NCBI RefSeq assembly: GCF_003611035.1
Contig: NZ_CP030033.1
Coordinates: 1,054,001 to 1,118,000, forward strand
Direction of reading: 5' to 3'
Length of the DNA: 64,000 bases
Source of the DNA: Cryobacterium soli
GTDB lineage: Bacteria; Actinomycetota; Actinomycetes; Actinomycetales; Microbacteriaceae
Position 1 is the first letter of the stretch; each line of letters starts with the position of its first letter. Below are positions 51,831 to 59,833 of this stretch, piece after piece. The position numbers and the translations under genes are program-made. The notes beneath the pieces were generated by a model. It had not been told where the DNA came from. It worked only from the letters and a program-made list of their open reading frames with translations, and searched no databases.

Positions 51831-52100
51831 CTAGCGGCGCAGGCCGAGACGCTCGATGAGCGAGCGGTAACGGTTGATGTCCACGTCGGACAGGTAGCCG
51901 AGCAGACGGCGACGCTGACCAACCAGGAGGAGCAGGCCACGACGCGAGTGGTGGTCGTGCTTGTGCTCTTTGAGGTGCTCCGTGAGGTCGAGAATGCGCT
52001 GCGTGAGCATTGCAATCTGGACTTCGGGGGAACCCGTGTCGCCCGGGTGGGTAGCGTACTTTTCGATGATCGCCTTCTTAGCATTAGCTTCGAGTGCCAT
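51831..52100 (-). CDS. rpsO: ribosomal protein S15
   Basis: Primary 16S rRNA-binding protein of the 30S platform. The 89-aa protein matches the family throughout ([45 protein letters not shown]). A single gene here; its usual partner pnp lies 16 kb away. Confidence 0.98.
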
Positions 52101-52311
52101 AGATGGGATCCCCTTTCTCTCACTGCGCGGTGCTCGGGGCAGAATGCCTGAGCTCTCTTTATCCGCGGCCGTTGAACGGCAACCTCAAGAGACTAGCAGA
52201 GTTCGCTCCCCTCTGGCGGGTCGAGAGGGTTCCTCTCGTCACCGATGATTGACTGGGTGCCCCTCTTCGAGGGTCACGCACAGCGGAATCCGGCACGACG
52301 AGGAGAATCAC

Positions 52312-55300
52312 GTGGAATCGACCGAACACGACTCGAGCACCCCCCAGCCCGTCGTCCCCACTGACCACAACCTCACCATCGCCCTCACCGTGACGCCCGT
52401 GCTCAGCTACGCCCTGGCCCACAACCGCATCAACGTCGTGGGCCGGGTCGAGGTCGACAATCGCGGCGCGGCCGTGCGCGAAGCCGTGCTGCGGCTCGAG
52501 GTGGTCAGCGCCGGCGACACCCTCGGCAGCGCGCGCGACCTGCTCGTCGACCTCGCCGCCGCCCGCACCGCGACCTTCACGGATGTCTCTCTCACCGTCG
52601 ATCCCGCAGCGATGCTGCTCGTCGAGGAACAGCGGCCCGCCACGATCCGGGCCAGCCTGCTGATCGACGGCGCCGTCGCCGCGCAGGCCGACGAGCCGAT
52701 CCAGCTGCTGGCCGCCCAGCAGTGGGTCGCCCGGCCGGTGGACCTGGCCCTGGAGATGCTCTCGGCGCACGTGCTCCCCAACCATCCCGCCGTCGCCACC
52801 CTGCTCGGTGAAGCCGCCGTGCTGCTGGCGGCCCGCACCGGATCCGCCTCGATGCCCGGCTACCAGGCCGGACCGGAGCGGGTCGACCAGGTGGTGGAAG
52901 CGGTCTTCGAGGCCATGCGCGCCCGCGGCATCCGCTACGCCACACCGCCGGCCAGCTGGGCCGACGACGGCCAGAAGGTGCGCACCCCCGGCGAGGTGCT
53001 CGGCTCCGGCGGGGTCGACGCCGCGGGCGCCGCCGGCGCGGCCGGCGCGATCAGTGCGAAGGGCGGGGTGGGCACCTGCCTCGACACCGTCGTGGTGATG
53101 GCCGCGGCCCTCGAGCAGGCCGGCCTGCACCCGCTGCTCTGGATCGTCACCGGGCACGCGTTCCTGGGCTACTGGCGTGAGGAGGAGACCCTGGGGGCTC
53201 CGGCCCTCACCGATGTGGCCGAGGTGATCAACCTCATCGACCTCGACCTGATCCGGCTCGTGGAAACCACCCAGGTCACCGACCAGGGCGCCGGCCGGCC
53301 GGCCGACTTCGCCGAGGCCCAGCGCTCCCCCTACCTGGAACGCCTCGCCGACCTGAGCAGTGTGATCGGCGTCGTCGACGTCGTGCAGGCGCGGCGCACG
53401 CACATCCTGCCGCTGCCCGCCCGCACCGTCACCGGCGACGGCACGGTACTCGTCACCGAGTACCGGCCGGGTTCGCCGGGGTCCGGCGTGCCTGCTGCGA
53501 TCGTGACGGATGCGCCGTCCGACGCGGCGGCCGCGGACTCGGGCGTCGTGGACTCGGGCGCACCCACCCGCCTCGCCCCGCCCCGGATCACGCAGTGGAA
53601 GAACGCCCTGCTCGACCTCAGCCTGCGCAACCGGCTGATCAACTTCACCGAGCGAGGCGCCCTGGCCCTCACCGTGCCCGACCGGCACCTCGCCGACCTG
53701 GAGGACCTCGTCACCGGCGGAACCGGGCTGACCCTGCTGCCGGCGGACCGGATGTCCTCGACCGACAAGGAGCGCGGCATCCGTTTCGGCCGCGACCTGC
53801 CGACCGACCAGCTGGCCGCCCTGCTGGCCGGCAAGAAGGCCGTCTACGCCGACGTCACCGACGCCGCCTATGCCACGAAGCTGCGCGCGCTGGTGTACAA
53901 GGCGCGCACCGTGGTGCAGGAGACCGGCGCCAACAACCTCTACCTGGCCTTCGGGTCGCTGGTCTGGACCGCGAATGACCGGGAACTGCGCAGCCCCCTG
54001 GTGCTCGTTCCCGTGGTGCTCGAACCGGCCGGCCGGGGCGGCGACTACAGGGTGCGGCTCGACGAGGCCGGCGCCTCCACGCCCAACTACTGCCTGCTCG
54101 AGAAGCTGCGCCAGCTGCACGGGCTCAGCATCCCCGGGCTGGAGAACCCGCAGGACGCGTCCCGCACCGACACCTCCGGCATCGACCTGGCCGGCGCCTT
54201 CCGTGCCACCCGCGAGGCCCTGTTGGCCGCCGGGCTGCCGTTCCGGGTGGAGGAGACCCTCGACCTGTCGATCCTGCAGTTCGCGAAGTTCCGGCTGTGG
54301 AAGGACCTCGACGAGAACTGGGAGACCCTGGCGCAGAACTCGCTCGTGAACCACCTCGTACACACGCCCACCCAGCCGTTCGTCGACCCGGTGCCGCTGC
54401 CGGAGCCGGCCGACCTGGACGCTCTCGGCGCCGAATGCCCCGTTCCGGGCGACTCGTCGCAGCTCGCCGCCGTGGCCGAGGCCATCGCCGAGCGCACCTT
54501 CGTGCTCGAGGGTCCTCCCGGAACCGGCAAGTCGCAGACCATCACCAATCTGCTCACCCGCGCCGTGTACGAGGGCAAGAAGGTGCTCTTCGTGGCCGAG
54601 AAACGCGCGGCCCTGCAGGTGGTGCAGGCCCGGCTGAACGAGGTGGGCATGGGGCCGTTCGCGCTCGACCTGCACGCGTTGGCCACCAAGCCGGCCGCCG
54701 TGCGCGCGCAGATCCGGCAGGCCCTCGAGCACGAGGTGACCGTGGACGGGCAGGGCCTCAAGAACGACCTCGACGTGCTCGGCACCGCCCGGCGCAGCCT
54801 GGCCCGGTACACCGACAGGCTGCACGAGCAGAACAGCGCAGGGCTGTCGTTCTACTCCGCCCGCACCGCGCAGCTCACCGCCGACGACGACGTTCGGGCC
54901 CTGCCGGTGCCAGCCGATCTGCCCGCGCGGATCACCGCCGACGAGCTGGACCAGCTGCGCCGGATGCTGCGGGACCTGCCCGACGTGACCGATCCGGTGC
55001 GGCCGCGGCCGCAGCATCCGTGGGCGTTCGTGACCGCGCCGCCGGCCGCGCCGCTGGACCTGCCGGCCGTGGCCAGGGCCGCCGCCGCGCTCGACGAGGC
55101 GCTGGCGGCGCTGCCCGTCGCCGGGTCCAGCCTGGCGTCCACGGACGCTGCCGCCGACCCCGCGGCGGCCGGTCACCGAGCCGCCGCCGCCGTGTCCAGT
55201 GCGGCCAGCCCCACCGAGTTCGTCACCCTGAGCAGCCTCGCCGCCGCCGAGCGGGTGCCGCTGACCACCCTCGACGGCACCCGCTCCCCCGCCTGGGCGG

Positions 55301-57837
55301 CCGCCGCCGCCGACGCCGAAACGGCCACCGCCCGGTTCACGCAGGCGCCGCATCCGGCGCTGGCCGTGCTCAAGCCGGAGGCCTTGCGGCTCGATGCCGC
55401 CGCCCTGCACCGTGACGCGCAAGCAGCGGATGCCGCGGGCTTCTTCGGCCGCCGCGGCCGGCGGAAGGCCGTGCTCGCGCGCCTGGCCGCGGAGCTCATT
55501 CCCGGCAACACCGTGCCCCTCAAGACTCTCTCGACCGTCACCGGCCAGCTGGCCGACAGCCAGGCGCAGCTGCAGGCCCTGCGCGCGCGGGTGCGCCTCG
55601 TGGACGGTGTCACCCTCGCCGACGACTGGAATCCGCTGGTCGGCTCCGCCGGGCACACCGGCCGTGACGAGTTCAGCGCCCGCCTGGCCTGGCTGCGCTG
55701 GGCCGGCGGTGCCGTCGCCCCGGGCCACAGGGAGCTCGGCGCCGACTTCGTGGCCGCCCTGCGCGACTACCTCGAAAGCACCCCGGCACCGGATGCCGAC
55801 CTGGCCGCGGCACTGAACCGGGCCCTCCTGGCCCTGCAGTCCGTGATGACCGCAACGGGCGCCGGTCCGGCCGCCGTCGCCGCCTGGGCCGCGGGCGGGG
55901 GCCTCGTGGCCGTCTGGTCCCGCGGCACCGAGGAGCGGGACGCGCAGGCCCCCGGGCTGCCCTCCCTCACCCGGTGGGTCGCCCTGCTCGAGCACCTCGA
56001 GCCGCTCCGCTCTCTCGGCCTCACGGCGGCGCACACGGCGGTGCTCCGCGGCGAGGTCGACGCCGACGACGCCGGGCTGGCGTTCGAAAAGGGGCTTGCC
56101 ACCGCCTCCGTCGCCGAACGCGGCCAGGCCACCACCCTGGCCCAGTTCGACGCCGCCGCCCAGAACCGCTCGATCACCCGGTTCACCACCGCGTCCGGCG
56201 CCGTGCGCCGGCACCTGCCCACGTTCATTCCGTACAGCGTGCTTCGGCGGCGCAGCATCGGCGGGGCGGGCGCGCCCACCGAGGCCGCCAGTGCCGCCGG
56301 GTCAGGGTCTTCGTCCGAGTCGGCCGAGTCCGCCGCGAGGCTGGGCCTGCTCAAGCGTCAGCTCGACCGCCAGCGCGGCGGCATGGGAGTGCGCGAGCTC
56401 ATGCACGAGTTCGGCGACCTGATCACCGACATCCTGCCGTGCATGTTGATGAGCCCGGAGTCGGTGGCCCGGTTCTTCCCCGCTCAGGCAGGGCTCTTCG
56501 ACATCGTCGTCTTCGACGAGGCTTCGCAGGTGCGGGTGTCCGACGCCGTCGGCGCCATGGGACGGGCCCGCTCGGTGGTGGTCGTGGGCGACAGCAAACA
56601 GATGCCGCCCACCTCGTTCGCCGAGTCCGCGATCGGCTCCGGCGAGGAGGACGGCGAGACCCTGGAGTTCGTGCGCGACGAGGAGTCGATCCTCTCGGAG
56701 TGCGTCCAGGCCCAGGTGCCCGGCAAATGGTTGTCCTGGCACTACCGCAGCCAGGACGAATCGCTCATCGCCTTCAGCAACCGGGCGTACTACCGCGACC
56801 GGCTGTCATCGTTCCCGGCGCCGCACCACGGCGCGGGCCCGGTGGCTGCCGCATCCGGCACGCTCGCCGACGCCGACACAGCAACCGAGCCGGTCCCCGG
56901 CGTGGCCGGCTACGGCGTGAGCCTCCGCCGGGTCGACGGGACCTTCCTCCGCAGCGGGAAGGGCAAGGACCTCCGCACCAACCCGGTGGAGGCGCAGGCG
57001 ATCGTGGCCGAGATCCTGGCCCGGTTCGCCGCCGAGCCCGACAGCATCCCGTCGATCGGCGTGATCACGTTCAACGTGCAGCAGCGTGCGCTCATCGAGG
57101 GAAGCCTGCGTGACAGCGGCGACGATCGCATCGTGCGCGCGCTCGAGAGCGAGACCGACGGTCTGTTCGTGAAGAACCTCGAGAATGTGCAGGGCGACGA
57201 ACGCGACACCATCCTGTTCTCCACGGCGTTCAGCGCGGATGCGTCCGGCCGGCTGCCGCTGAACTTCGGCCCCCTGAACCTGCCGGGCGGCGAGCGCCGG
57301 CTGAACGTGGCGATCACCCGGGCCCGCCGCCAGGTGATCGTGTTCAGCAGCTTCGACCCGCAGGACCTGCGCGCCGAGGAGACCATCTCGGCCGGGGTGA
57401 AGGACCTGCGCGCCTACCTCGACCTGGCCGCCGGCGGATCCGACGGGCTCGCGAGCCCGCTGCGCCAGTCCGGCGCGCTCGACCGGCACCGGGAGCAGAT
57501 CGCCGAGGCGCTGCGCGAGCGCGGCTTCGCCGTGCAGACGGATGTGGGCCTGTCCGACTTCCGGGTGGACCTCAGCGTGGCCACGGCCGGTTCGCCCGGG
57601 CATCCGGTGATGGCCGTGCTGCTCGACGGCCCCACGTGGGCGGCCCGCCGCACGGTCTCCGACCGCGACGGCCTGCCCGTCGAGGTGCTCTCCCGGCTGA
57701 TGGGCTGGCCCGCGGTGGAACGCGTGTGGATGCCCGAGTGGCTCGGCGAGCAGGGCGCGGTGCTCGACCGCCTGGACGAGAAGCTGACCGCCCTCGATGC
57801 CGCCCGACAGGCGCACGAGGCTGCCGCCCTGGCCTGA
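52312..57837 (+). CDS. DUF4011-helicase-Vsr-like protein (Hhe-type defence candidate)
   Basis: The 1841-aa protein has a transglutaminase-like segment (Cys in GTCLDTVVVMAAALEQ near 255), DUF4011 (ITQWKNALLDLSLRNRLINF, ~426-680), Walker A EGPPGTGKSQT (~732-742), a 650-residue insertion, then SF1 motifs: DIVVFDEAS (~1396), GDSKQMPPTS (~1425), WHYRSQDESL (~1476), VQGDERD (~1626), RLNVAITRARR (~1663), and a C-terminal Vsr/MTES_1575-like region (~1720-1825). The order matches the single-gene defence architecture DUF4011-helicase-Vsr, named Hhe in a published survey (from memory). The acidic pair of the nuclease (usual ECDG) reads VLLDG here. The start is GTG with AGGAG upstream. Confidence 0.8.
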   Translation: MESTEHDSSTPQPVVPTDHNLTIALTVTPVLSYALAHNRINVVGRVEVDNRGAAVREAVLRLEVVSAGDTLGSARDLLVDLAAARTATFTDVSLTVDPAAMLLVEEQRPATIRASLLIDGAVAAQADEPIQLLAAQQWVARPVDLALEMLSAHVLPNHPAVATLLGEAAVLLAARTGSASMPGYQAGPERVDQVVEAVFEAMRARGIRYATPPASWADDGQKVRTPGEVLGSGGVDAAGAAGAAGAISAKGGVGTCLDTVVVMAAALEQAGLHPLLWIVTGHAFLGYWREEETLGAPALTDVAEVINLIDLDLIRLVETTQVTDQGAGRPADFAEAQRSPYLERLADLSSVIGVVDVVQARRTHILPLPARTVTGDGTVLVTEYRPGSPGSGVPAAIVTDAPSDAAAADSGVVDSGAPTRLAPPRITQWKNALLDLSLRNRLINFTERGALALTVPDRHLADLEDLVTGGTGLTLLPADRMSSTDKERGIRFGRDLPTDQLAALLAGKKAVYADVTDAAYATKLRALVYKARTVVQETGANNLYLAFGSLVWTANDRELRSPLVLVPVVLEPAGRGGDYRVRLDEAGASTPNYCLLEKLRQLHGLSIPGLENPQDASRTDTSGIDLAGAFRATREALLAAGLPFRVEETLDLSILQFAKFRLWKDLDENWETLAQNSLVNHLVHTPTQPFVDPVPLPEPADLDALGAECPVPGDSSQLAAVAEAIAERTFVLEGPPGTGKSQTITNLLTRAVYEGKKVLFVAEKRAALQVVQARLNEVGMGPFALDLHALATKPAAVRAQIRQALEHEVTVDGQGLKNDLDVLGTARRSLARYTDRLHEQNSAGLSFYSARTAQLTADDDVRALPVPADLPARITADELDQLRRMLRDLPDVTDPVRPRPQHPWAFVTAPPAAPLDLPAVARAAAALDEALAALPVAGSSLASTDAAADPAAAGHRAAAAVSSAASPTEFVTLSSLAAAERVPLTTLDGTRSPAWAAAAADAETATARFTQAPHPALAVLKPEALRLDAAALHRDAQAADAAGFFGRRGRRKAVLARLAAELIPGNTVPLKTLSTVTGQLADSQAQLQALRARVRLVDGVTLADDWNPLVGSAGHTGRDEFSARLAWLRWAGGAVAPGHRELGADFVAALRDYLESTPAPDADLAAALNRALLALQSVMTATGAGPAAVAAWAAGGGLVAVWSRGTEERDAQAPGLPSLTRWVALLEHLEPLRSLGLTAAHTAVLRGEVDADDAGLAFEKGLATASVAERGQATTLAQFDAAAQNRSITRFTTASGAVRRHLPTFIPYSVLRRRSIGGAGAPTEAASAAGSGSSSESAESAARLGLLKRQLDRQRGGMGVRELMHEFGDLITDILPCMLMSPESVARFFPAQAGLFDIVVFDEASQVRVSDAVGAMGRARSVVVVGDSKQMPPTSFAESAIGSGEEDGETLEFVRDEESILSECVQAQVPGKWLSWHYRSQDESLIAFSNRAYYRDRLSSFPAPHHGAGPVAAASGTLADADTATEPVPGVAGYGVSLRRVDGTFLRSGKGKDLRTNPVEAQAIVAEILARFAAEPDSIPSIGVITFNVQQRALIEGSLRDSGDDRIVRALESETDGLFVKNLENVQGDERDTILFSTAFSADASGRLPLNFGPLNLPGGERRLNVAITRARRQVIVFSSFDPQDLRAEETISAGVKDLRAYLDLAAGGSDGLASPLRQSGALDRHREQIAEALRERGFAVQTDVGLSDFRVDLSVATAGSPGHPVMAVLLDGPTWAARRTVSDRDGLPVEVLSRLMGWPAVERVWMPEWLGEQGAVLDRLDEKLTALDAARQAHEAAALA

Positions 57838-57853
57838 ATGGCACGGCTGCCCC

Positions 57854-57990
57854 CACCAAGACTGGCCCACTTTCGCTAGTCGGCACACCCCGCGCACTAG
57901 CGAATTCGGGCCAGTCACCCCAGGCACCACCAAGACTGGCCCACTTTCGCTAGTCGGCACGGCCCGCGCACTAGCGAATTCGGGCCAGTC
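57854..57990. repeat. tandem pair of 63-nt palindromic elements, family B
   Basis: Copies at 57854-57916 and 57928-57990 differ at two bases of 63, period 74 bp. Each folds: gactggccc / gggccagtc (9 bp), 2-3-nt interruptions, ttcgctagt / actagcgaa (9 bp), 15-nt loop. They lie between convergent helicase and DinB-like genes, and the pair may act as a double terminator. Confidence 0.9.
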
Positions 57991-58006
57991 TGAGCTTGGC
58001 GGTGTC

Positions 58007-58684
58007 TCAGAGCACGGTGAAGCCGGCGGGGAGCGGCGCCCGGCCGGTGGCTGCGCGCAGCAGCGGGGCGGAGACGCCCTTCTGGGCGGCGAGGTCGGCT
58101 AGCACGTGCAGGGTCGCGGCGGCGGCGGGCTCCGGCACGGTCTGCTCGGCGGCCGGCACCCCTTGGCTCTGGAGCAGGTCGCTAGTGTGCACCGTGAGCT
58201 CCAGCGTGCGCGACGGCAGGTACTCGGCAATACGGATGCGCCCGGCTGGGGTGTCGGCCGGCTCGGCGCCGGTGAGGGTACCGACCCGTGCCAGCACCCG
58301 GGCGGCGAGCGCCGCCACCGCCTCGGCCGGCCGGGCGCCGAGGGTGGCGGCGGTCTCGCGTCCGCGCTGGGCGATCACCTCCGGGGTGCCGGCCGCGAGG
58401 GCGCGCTCGTAGTAGGCGGCCGGGGACGTGACCGTGATGCTGGCGGCCACGCCCGCGGCATCCTCTTCTGCGGCGATGTCGAGGTAGGTCTCGATGGTGG
58501 ACAGTGCCCGGCTGGTGTGCCCGACGAGGTCGCGCACACTCCACTCGCCCAGGCCCACCTCCGTCCAGACCCCCTCCTCGCCGTCCGCGCGTTCGGCGAT
58601 GCCGGCGGTCACCGCCACAAACCACCTCGTGGCGGCGTCGAAGGCGAAAAGCGTCTCTGACCAGTCCGTGCGAGTCTCACTCAT
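58007..58684 (-). CDS. mycothiol-dependent maleylpyruvate-isomerase/DinB-fold protein
   Basis: The 225-aa protein has the N-terminal MDMPI/DinB four-helix domain with the metal-binding-type motif WSVRDLVGHTSR and ELTVHTSDLL for the second His. Common in mycothiol-making actinobacteria; substrate unknown. The start ATG 58684 is used; GTG at 58690 is an alternative two codons upstream. Confidence 0.82.
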   Translation of the reverse strand: MSETRTDWSETLFAFDAATRWFVAVTAGIAERADGEEGVWTEVGLGEWSVRDLVGHTSRALSTIETYLDIAAEEDAAGVAASITVTSPAAYYERALAAGTPEVIAQRGRETAATLGARPAEAVAALAARVLARVGTLTGAEPADTPAGRIRIAEYLPSRTLELTVHTSDLLQSQGVPAAEQTVPEPAAAATLHVLADLAAQKGVSAPLLRAATGRAPLPAGFTVL

Positions 58685-58717
58685 GGCCACAGAGTAACGT
58701 CATGCCGGAGCCGGTGG

Positions 58718-59713
58718 TCAGAAAATGCGGGCCGCTATCTCGGCGGGCGCCTCCAGCAGGGCCTCGATCTCGTCGTCGAGCCGCACCAGGGTGAGCGACG
58801 CACCGGCCATGTCCAGCGAGGTGCAGTACTCCCCCACGTAGCTGCGCCCCACCGTGATGCCCAGCTCGGTGAGCCGTTCGTGCGCGTGCCCGTACAGGAT
58901 GTACAGCTCGCTGATGGGAGTGCCGCCCAGCCCGTTGATCATCAGGGCCACCCGGTCGCCCGCCACATACGGCAGGTCGTTGACCACCGCATCCAGAAGC
59001 TCGTCGGTCATCTCGTTGGCCGTGGTGAGCTTGGCGCGCCGCCGGCCGGGTTCGCCGTGGATGCCCACGCCCACCTCGATCTCGTCGTCGCCGATCTCGA
59101 ACAGCGGCGAACCCTTGGCGGGCGGGGTGCAGGAGGTGAGGGCGATGCCCATGGTGCGGGTGACGCTGTCGACCTTCTCGCCGATGCGCACGAGTTCGTC
59201 GAGGTCGGCGCCCTGCTCGGCGGCGGCACCGACGGCCTTCATCACGAAGAAGTTGCCGGCCACCCCGCGCCGGCCCACGGTGTAGGTGGAGTCCTGCACG
59301 GCGACGTCGTCGTCGATGAACAGGGTCTTCACGTTCACACCGTCGGCGGCACTGAGTTCCTGGGCCATCTCGAACGCCATCCGGTCGCCGGTGTAGTTGT
59401 TCACCAGCAGCAGCACGCCCTTGGGCGAGGCCAGCAGCTTGGTGGTCTCGTAGACGTAGTCCATCGGCGGGGCCGAGAACACGTCGCCCGGACACGCGGC
59501 GTCGAGCATGCCGCGGCCCACCGTCATCACGTGGGCCGGCTCGTGCCCTGAGCCTGAGCCCTGGATGATCGAGACCCGGTCTGGGCTGGGGCTGTCTGAG
59601 CGCATGATCAGGTTGTACGCGGGCACATACTTCAACGTGTCCGGGTTGGCCAGCGCGATGCCCTTGAGCATCTCCGGAACGTACTGCTTCGGGTCGTTGA
59701 CGAATTTCTTCAT
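58718..59713 (-). CDS. dhaK: dihydroxyacetone kinase subunit DhaK
   Basis: Substrate-binding subunit that holds the ketone as a hemiaminal. The 331-aa protein has GSGHEP at 54-59 and the covalent His H219 in GIHGEPG. With DhaL it should phosphorylate dihydroxyacetone or a related short ketose. No DhaM (PTS phosphoryl donor) is in the window, so an ATP-dependent system is likely. Separated from dhaL by 154 bp of tandem repeats. Confidence 0.93.
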   Translation of the reverse strand: MKKFVNDPKQYVPEMLKGIALANPDTLKYVPAYNLIMRSDSPSPDRVSIIQGSGSGHEPAHVMTVGRGMLDAACPGDVFSAPPMDYVYETTKLLASPKGVLLLVNNYTGDRMAFEMAQELSAADGVNVKTLFIDDDVAVQDSTYTVGRRGVAGNFFVMKAVGAAAEQGADLDELVRIGEKVDSVTRTMGIALTSCTPPAKGSPLFEIGDDEIEVGVGIHGEPGRRRAKLTTANEMTDELLDAVVNDLPYVAGDRVALMINGLGGTPISELYILYGHAHERLTELGITVGRSYVGEYCTSLDMAGASLTLVRLDDEIEALLEAPAEIAARIF

Positions 59714-59731
59714 GGCTCCCTCTCGTGACAG

Positions 59732-59833
59732 GCGGTGCTCGGTCGGATGCGGTGCTCGGTCGAAGGCGGTGCTCGGTCTCTGGCGGTGCTCGGTCTATGG
59801 CGGTGCTCGGTCTCTGGCGGTACGAAGTCGGTC
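59732..59833. repeat. 17-bp tandem repeats between dhaL and dhaK
   Basis: Five perfect-phase units gcggtgctcggtcNNNN (59732-59816) plus a degenerate sixth (59817-59833). The first 13 bases are invariant and the last four vary. Related decayed copies run on to 59870. Confidence 0.9.

Follow-up and report, generated by a model that had tools for sequence, protein, structure and literature searches.

Giant proteins that join HEPN, transglutaminase, superfamily 1 (SF1) helicase, Vsr and winged helix-turn-helix (wHTH) domains, of the MTES_1575 type, were described by Anantharaman et al. (2013; PMC3710099). In the passages of that paper that concern them, the Vsr domain is treated as a DNase, loss of its catalytic residues goes unmentioned, and cleavage of proteins by the transglutaminase domain had already been proposed. 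The source of MTES_1575 is Microbacterium testaceum, which belongs to the same bacterial family as Cryobacterium. A different precedent is FASTKD4 (PMC11879112): in the part of the paper that describes it, its RAP domain, of Vsr-like fold, carries Asn at the His position and is inferred to bind RNA and to have no nuclease activity, mutation of the putative catalytic Asp being without effect. Here we studied a protein of 1841 residues encoded in a stretch of 64,000 nucleotides of Cryobacterium soli (NZ_CP030033.1, positions 1,054,001 to 1,118,000, forward strand), hereafter the window, in which an Ig-like domain, a transglutaminase-like (TG) domain, DUF4011, a split SF1 helicase and a Vsr-like fold follow one another. 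We give a probability of roughly 0.45 to the reading that it is a nuclease-dead, short-form DUF4011 helicase of the ProA type, in which the TG-like enzyme would be the only intact candidate effector.

Family assignment and the Vsr-like site

An earlier interpretation made from the DNA letters (the sequence-only reading) had placed at 52312..57837 an Hhe-type DUF4011 helicase with an altered, apparently inactive Vsr-like domain. The domains are all there: the helicase has Walker A and Walker B motifs in halves matching AAA_11 and AAA_12, the TG fold holds a Cys-His-Asp/Glu triad, and the C-terminal domain is predicted to adopt the Vsr-like fold. The family, judged by profile scores, is ProA and not Hhe. 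Against the NCBIfam profile NF058533 ('anti-phage protein ProA', curated cut-off 1500 bits) the protein scores 1569.5 bits over residues 32-1838, and 1569.9 in the genome search, while NF042953 (Hhe, curated cut-off 2000) gives 540.7 bits over residues 1218-1835; PADLOC likewise places PDC-S37 first (802.6 bits), ahead of Hhe (367.2), PDC names being those of PADLOC candidates. The ProA profile is covered up to position 1716 of 1903, the DUF3320/wHTH part beyond about 1716 being unmatched, and another member, L214, also exceeds the cut-off without DUF3320. Our literature search, which left preprints and most subscription papers outside, found no experimental paper on an anti-phage ProA, so that the anti-phage label comes here from NCBIfam alone. 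Neither the name PDC-S37 nor a paper treating DUF4011 together with Vsr was found in the literature searched; term searches found ProA, DUF4011, Hhe and Vsr all absent from PMC13092281, and Hhe, DUF4011 and Vsr from PMC9122126.

From its profile matches alone this protein would be called a helicase of anti-phage defence that bears a Vsr-type nuclease, as residues 1728-1825 match REase_MTES_1575 (PF18741) at 51.7 bits, above the Pfam gathering score of 38.2. Such a match does not imply nuclease activity. By a criterion of our own, outside the NCBIfam rule, we looked for Glu and His in the Vsr/MTES_1575 domain as in the high-scoring ProA proteins L210 and L214, and found LLDGPTWA in place of ECDGATYH. 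At the EDxHD sites the protein has R1727, D1753 and A1777, the Asp alone being kept of helix Glu, strand Asp and His.

To place this site among relatives we used 121 proteins from one protein search (the query and the best 120 of 3081 matches) and a further 140 from genome loci and the window, 261 altogether. Removing duplicates by a 600-residue core left 244, of which 241 were scored; L119, L120 and L197 were set aside, as the frame used offered no Vsr-like domain that could be scored. We defined as a branch the 159 proteins that have Trp in place of the Tyr and lack the Glu of IECDG, and these two traits are universal in it because they define it; since 120 members come from the closest-match list, and 39 from loci, branch counts are skewed to near kin. 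His is absent from all 159, with seven different residues at its position, and the helix Glu is replaced by Arg in 151 and present in 2. The Asp1753 position holds Asp in 157 (98.7%) and Glu in two, including the short form of genome G007; D1772 (159/159), D1784 and R1785 are conserved at 100% and D1786 at 96.8%. Outside the branch, Glu is present in 65 of 82 proteins, 53 of which also have His. The helix Glu accompanies 52 of these 53 and none of the 12 with Glu but no His, and not one of the 17 proteins lacking Glu has His; the three residues therefore come and go together, like parts of one site. An intact GVECDG..YH is found in G043 (L036, a relative without TG domain) and in G056 (L038, an end of 880 residues), neither of them a broken long ProA, and the same altered site as in the window in L183, from Microbacterium sp. 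C7(2022).

In these alignments the altered site is thus the rule of an old, large, mostly actinobacterial branch, and the VLLDG segment singled out by the sequence-only reading proves common to all 159 sampled members (for Glu, by definition). The Vsr-like domain keeps its predicted fold and D1753, D1772, D1784 and D1786, and is without the helix Glu, the strand Glu and His. These combined changes would make ordinary Vsr-type cleavage unlikely, so that the suspicion of inactivity holds: the site is very probably dead, and the comparison indicates that the whole branch cannot cut by the usual mechanism. Could the domain still be a nuclease, with a site rearranged on D1753, D1772 and D1784/D1786? 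The near-complete conservation of these residues and of R1785 would fit, as would a constraint on the domain equal to that on the second helicase half. Trp for Tyr is by itself no mark of a dead site, as L122 and L128 combine it with Glu and His, and E. coli Vsr itself is not known to have Glu at the IECDG position. We nevertheless hold this to be very improbable, for all three residues are replaced, His by a whole range of others. An intact PD-(D/E)xK site shifted along the chain, which the sequence-only reading had named as counting against it, was not seen in the alignments, inspected by eye. The FASTKD4 precedent (PMC11879112), in the part describing the Asp mutant, also speaks for a fold of this kind without nuclease activity.

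A tree of 117 helicase rows chosen from the 261, built by a quick method with support from the Shimodaira-Hasegawa-like approximate likelihood ratio test (SH-aLRT) only, recovers the branch as a single clade, with 53 rows and an SH-aLRT of 100. To explain where Glu is missing, this tree requires at least four changes, two of them forced by starred branches. The neighbours of the branch that lack Glu (L254, L205, L245, L201, L213, L222, L238 and L206) suggest, with support of 89, that Glu was lost before the branch arose; the placement of the long rows L103, L193, L117, L110 and L107 is uncertain.

Selection on the short form, which has neither HEPN nor DUF3320, was estimated as a ratio of nonsynonymous to synonymous rates (dN/dS), taken as the ratio of mean pairwise values among 12 short forms. 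It is under purifying selection, the Vsr-like domain included: dN/dS is 0.21 for the Ig and TG domains, 0.13 for DUF4011, 0.08 and 0.13 for the first and second helicase halves, 0.30 for the insert between them, 0.13 for the Vsr-like domain and 0.17 for the last 29 residues. The dead domain is therefore as constrained as the second helicase half. That the gene is simply decaying finds some echo in the short form of G011, a locus from a metagenome-assembled genome (MAG), which is split by an internal stop, and in the long copies of G045, G051 and G066, which are split or partial. We give it hardly any credence: all domains show values of 0.08-0.30, the frame is open in 11 of the 12 short forms, and the site changes are common to the whole branch. 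The decayed defence gene offered as one option by the sequence-only reading is for these reasons not supported, nor is VLLDG a decay of this single gene.

The transglutaminase-like domain as candidate effector

The other option of that reading, a different effector such as the transglutaminase-like N-terminus, is a live possibility. In standalone relatives, mostly 361-371 residues long, the pattern C..GHA..EST stands opposite Cys256, His282 and Glu318 in the alignment. Cys, His and Glu are all present in the 12 short forms, and a C-H-E or C-H-D triad is intact in 146 of the 155 branch proteins that have the domain. Among the 341 N-terminal columns, H282 (100%), E318 (98%) and C256 (94%) rank 1, 22 and 43 in conservation across the branch. 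N307, a candidate for the third triad residue in 50 close sequences, was set aside when the wider alignment favoured E318, pairing it with the Glu of 'IEST'. The structure was modelled in two separate pieces, N-terminal and Vsr-like; among the Foldseek matches listed for the first, Ig-like domains predominate and the TG part is weak (3kd4, 6a8p), being clearer in a second comparison with VIA-align. The standalone proteins L165-L174, from other Actinomycetota, share C..GHA..EST with ProA; eight of the ten have 361-371 residues, and most have by eye an N-terminal membrane anchor. A relative from a deltaproteobacterial MAG (L234:953-3148) carries a protein kinase domain fused ahead of the TG-like domain.

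The branch seems to have lost its DNA-cutting site long ago and to have kept an intact-looking, protease-like one; if the protein defends, it therefore probably does so with another weapon. In the mechanism that we favour, the SF1 helicase and DUF4011 would act as sensor or motor, engaging invading or abnormal nucleic acid, and the dead Vsr-like domain would hold nucleic acid without cutting it, like the clamp proposed for FASTKD4. Movement driven by ATP would switch on the TG-like domain (C256-H282-E318), which as a cysteine peptidase or amidase would modify a protein, the outcome being anti-phage or anti-plasmid defence. That the protein is still one of defence seems to us probable; that the TG domain is its effector is plausible, somewhat short of an even chance. 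More tentatively, the effector may have switched within one helicase family, from DNA cleavage to protein modification: Vsr would have been disarmed but have stayed on to read nucleic acid, the HEPN and wHTH modules would have gone, and the Cryobacterium short form would be left with a helicase-triggered, TG-like cysteine enzyme as its one weapon. An intact TG triad stands together with the Vsr Glu and His in 34 unique proteins outside the branch, and the TG domain therefore did not originate as a substitute for the nuclease; the same 34 proteins of the wider set rule out the mutual exclusion of TG and intact Vsr site that a sample of Actinomycetota had suggested.

Partner domains were probably shed as well. 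Our own profile finds HEPN in 25 of the 159 branch proteins, and in 18 of these the motif RNxWAH is visible; Pfam adds L102. Our profile, made from 11 actinobacterial proteins and liable to overlook distant HEPN domains, finds none in the 82 proteins outside the branch. In the window protein we found neither HEPN_Swt1 with Rx4-6H nor DUF3320, and no remnant of HEPN or DUF3320 lies in the six frames of window 57001-59800 or in 11 short-form loci. The sister of the short form (99*) on the tree is formed by L007 and L029 (95*), both with DUF3320 and no HEPN, and P0022 (81) and P0121 (83), outside this group, carry the two domains together; the simplest reading is that HEPN was lost first and DUF3320 next. 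All 20 short forms (A1) end 31 residues past a motif of the type RVW[LM]PEW, an end shared by Herbiconiux P0078 elsewhere in the tree. By this comparison HEPN, Vsr site, TG site and DUF3320 vary and are lost separately, and the helicase stays. L102 (in G376) has HEPN, TG and Vsr sites all without catalytic residues, and P0096, of 2406 residues from Phytoactinopolyspora halophila, has an additional exonuclease domain (PF00929).

Several points weigh against a TG effector in a defence protein. Cys or more of the triad is missing in nine of the 155 branch proteins, and C256 is less conserved than many of its neighbours. Six of these nine also lack HEPN (P0079, P0113, P0116, P0120, L181 and L185), and so the family can persist without a recognisable intact effector and TG catalysis cannot be needed in all members; they count against a TG effector as a general rule. 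With P0107 and L102, they rule out that each branch member has at least one intact effector. The ProA score lies 69 bits above its cut-off, no more. Foldseek of the Vsr-like model against the PDB gave nothing below E 0.001 (best 0.013, 3hrl). No enzymatic or defence activity of the window protein was found in print. The locus stands among housekeeping genes, and among ten neighbouring frames the sole PADLOC match is an amino-acid permease hit by a generic transporter model.

The main rival to a TG effector, and the less probable of the two, is that the helicase or translocase alone is active, binding, displacing or blocking invading nucleic acid, the TG-like and Vsr-like domains being structural or sensory. 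Its first half is the most constrained part of the protein. The six proteins just named have neither catalytic Vsr nor catalytic TG residues, and the same holds for P0107, whose HEPN is without Rx4H, and for L186, whose HEPN has no clear Rx4H; in L102 all three are altered. Still, a triad kept in 146 of 155 proteins is seemingly more than a purely structural role needs, and L181, L186 and P0107, among the exceptions, come from MAGs or single metagenome sequences, so we regard an active helicase alone as rather unlikely.

The locus and its distribution in the genus

The coordinates of the protein, its domains and its two neighbours are collected in Table 1.

Table 1. Features of the short-form locus (window positions).
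Feature	Position	Strand	Remark
rpsO, left neighbour	51831..52100	-	
ORF, short-form ProA-type protein	52312..57837	+	1841 residues
Ig-like beta-sandwich domain	52384..52716	+	residues about 25-135; basis AF2 + VIA-align
Transglutaminase-like domain	52726..53427	+	residues about 139-372
C256	53077..53079	+	putative catalytic Cys of TG-like domain
H282	53155..53157	+	putative catalytic His of TG-like domain
E318	53263..53265	+	putative third triad residue of TG-like domain
DUF4011	53608..54108	+	residues 433-599
SF1 helicase, first half	54451..54720	+	Walker A 734-741
Insert between helicase halves	54892..56418	+	residues 861-1369; faster-evolving, basis dN/dS 0.30
SF1 helicase, second half	56419..57456	+	Walker B 1399-1406; AAA_12
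Vsr-like / MTES_1575 domain	57493..57786	+	residues 1728-1825; without catalytic Glu and His
D1753	57568..57570	+	Asp kept in VDLSV
L1770-A1777 (LLDGPTWA)	57619..57642	+	replaces ECDG..YH
MDMPI_N gene, right neighbour	58007..58690	-	copies of at least 82% identity confined to the 12 of 57 genomes with the short form

The short form is present in 12 of 57 genomes of the genus and missing from the other 45. Each of the 12 has it flanked by rpsO on one side and by the MDMPI_N gene (227 residues), followed by dhaK, on the other (in G007 by coordinates); ten other genomes have an MDMPI_N relative of 45-57% identity. That this Cryobacterium clade has co-opted the gene as a housekeeping one, with defence lost, would agree with this constant position and constant neighbour, with the 11 intact reading frames, and with the lack of a recognised defence gene among the ten neighbouring frames searched with PADLOC. 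In its favour too, the relevant part of PMC10250203 places a DUF4011 gene at the border of a P. aeruginosa defence hotspot in all isolates. However, the absence of the short form from 45 genomes and rpsO-dhaK intervals without ProA in at least five exclude a core function in the genus, and the near relatives P0022 and P0121 carry the HEPN RNase domain, a usual defence signature; we consider a housekeeping role improbable.

The rpsO-dhaK interval (window 51831-59713; L256) is variable in the genus, holding ProA, a rhodopsin-like gene or a dehydrogenase (both by eye), MDMPI_N, or nothing, and could not be resolved in 38 of the 57 genomes. G003 and G047 have the long form there with other genes, the MDMPI_N relative stands alone, with no ProA, in G005, G045 and G051, and in G041 and G012 rpsO and dhaK are directly adjacent. 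Genome G007 carries a HEPN-bearing long form besides its short form. In G047 the stretch separating the long form from rpsO holds one frame considered as a partner gene, an idea that was dropped, as by eye it reads rhodopsin-like and not HEPN. Between proA and the MDMPI_N gene, window 57860-57990 holds two tandem palindromic elements, GACTGGCCC..TTCGCTAGT and inverse, with 29 matches genome-wide (at most 2 mismatches) against 0 for a reversed control and an RNA fold z of -9.2; they look like a family of repetitive extragenic palindromic (REP) repeats. At G000:C1:3678383-3681691 lies a second helicase, shorter (about 1252 residues), whose match to the ProA profile falls in the DUF4011 and helicase parts, and similar ones give matches in genus genomes without ProA.

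Comparison with described systems

What was already known is the architecture (Anantharaman et al.) and the proposal of protein cleavage by the TG domain. With the MTES_1575-type giants, as that paper presents them in part (PMC3710099), the window protein shares a single chain that contains transglutaminase, SF1 helicase and Vsr; they have HEPN and wHTH, and it has neither. With ProA (NF058533) it shares the TG-like domain, DUF4011, the split SF1 helicase and MTES_1575, whereas the ProA of Pseudomonas jessenii (L210, 2316.3 bits), with an intact site, reads GVECDGATYH and carries DUF3320, and the window protein is without the Glu, the His and DUF3320. It has the DUF4011 helicase family in common with Hhe, far below whose cut-off it scores, and its best match in PADLOC is the candidate PDC-S37. 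FASTKD4, in the part described, is a mitochondrial RNA maturation protein with no helicase, so the likeness there is one of principle only. Set beside these systems, a natural protein apparently reduced to a helicase and a TG-like enzyme raises the question of whether a helicase-based defence can have a cysteine enzyme as its effector.
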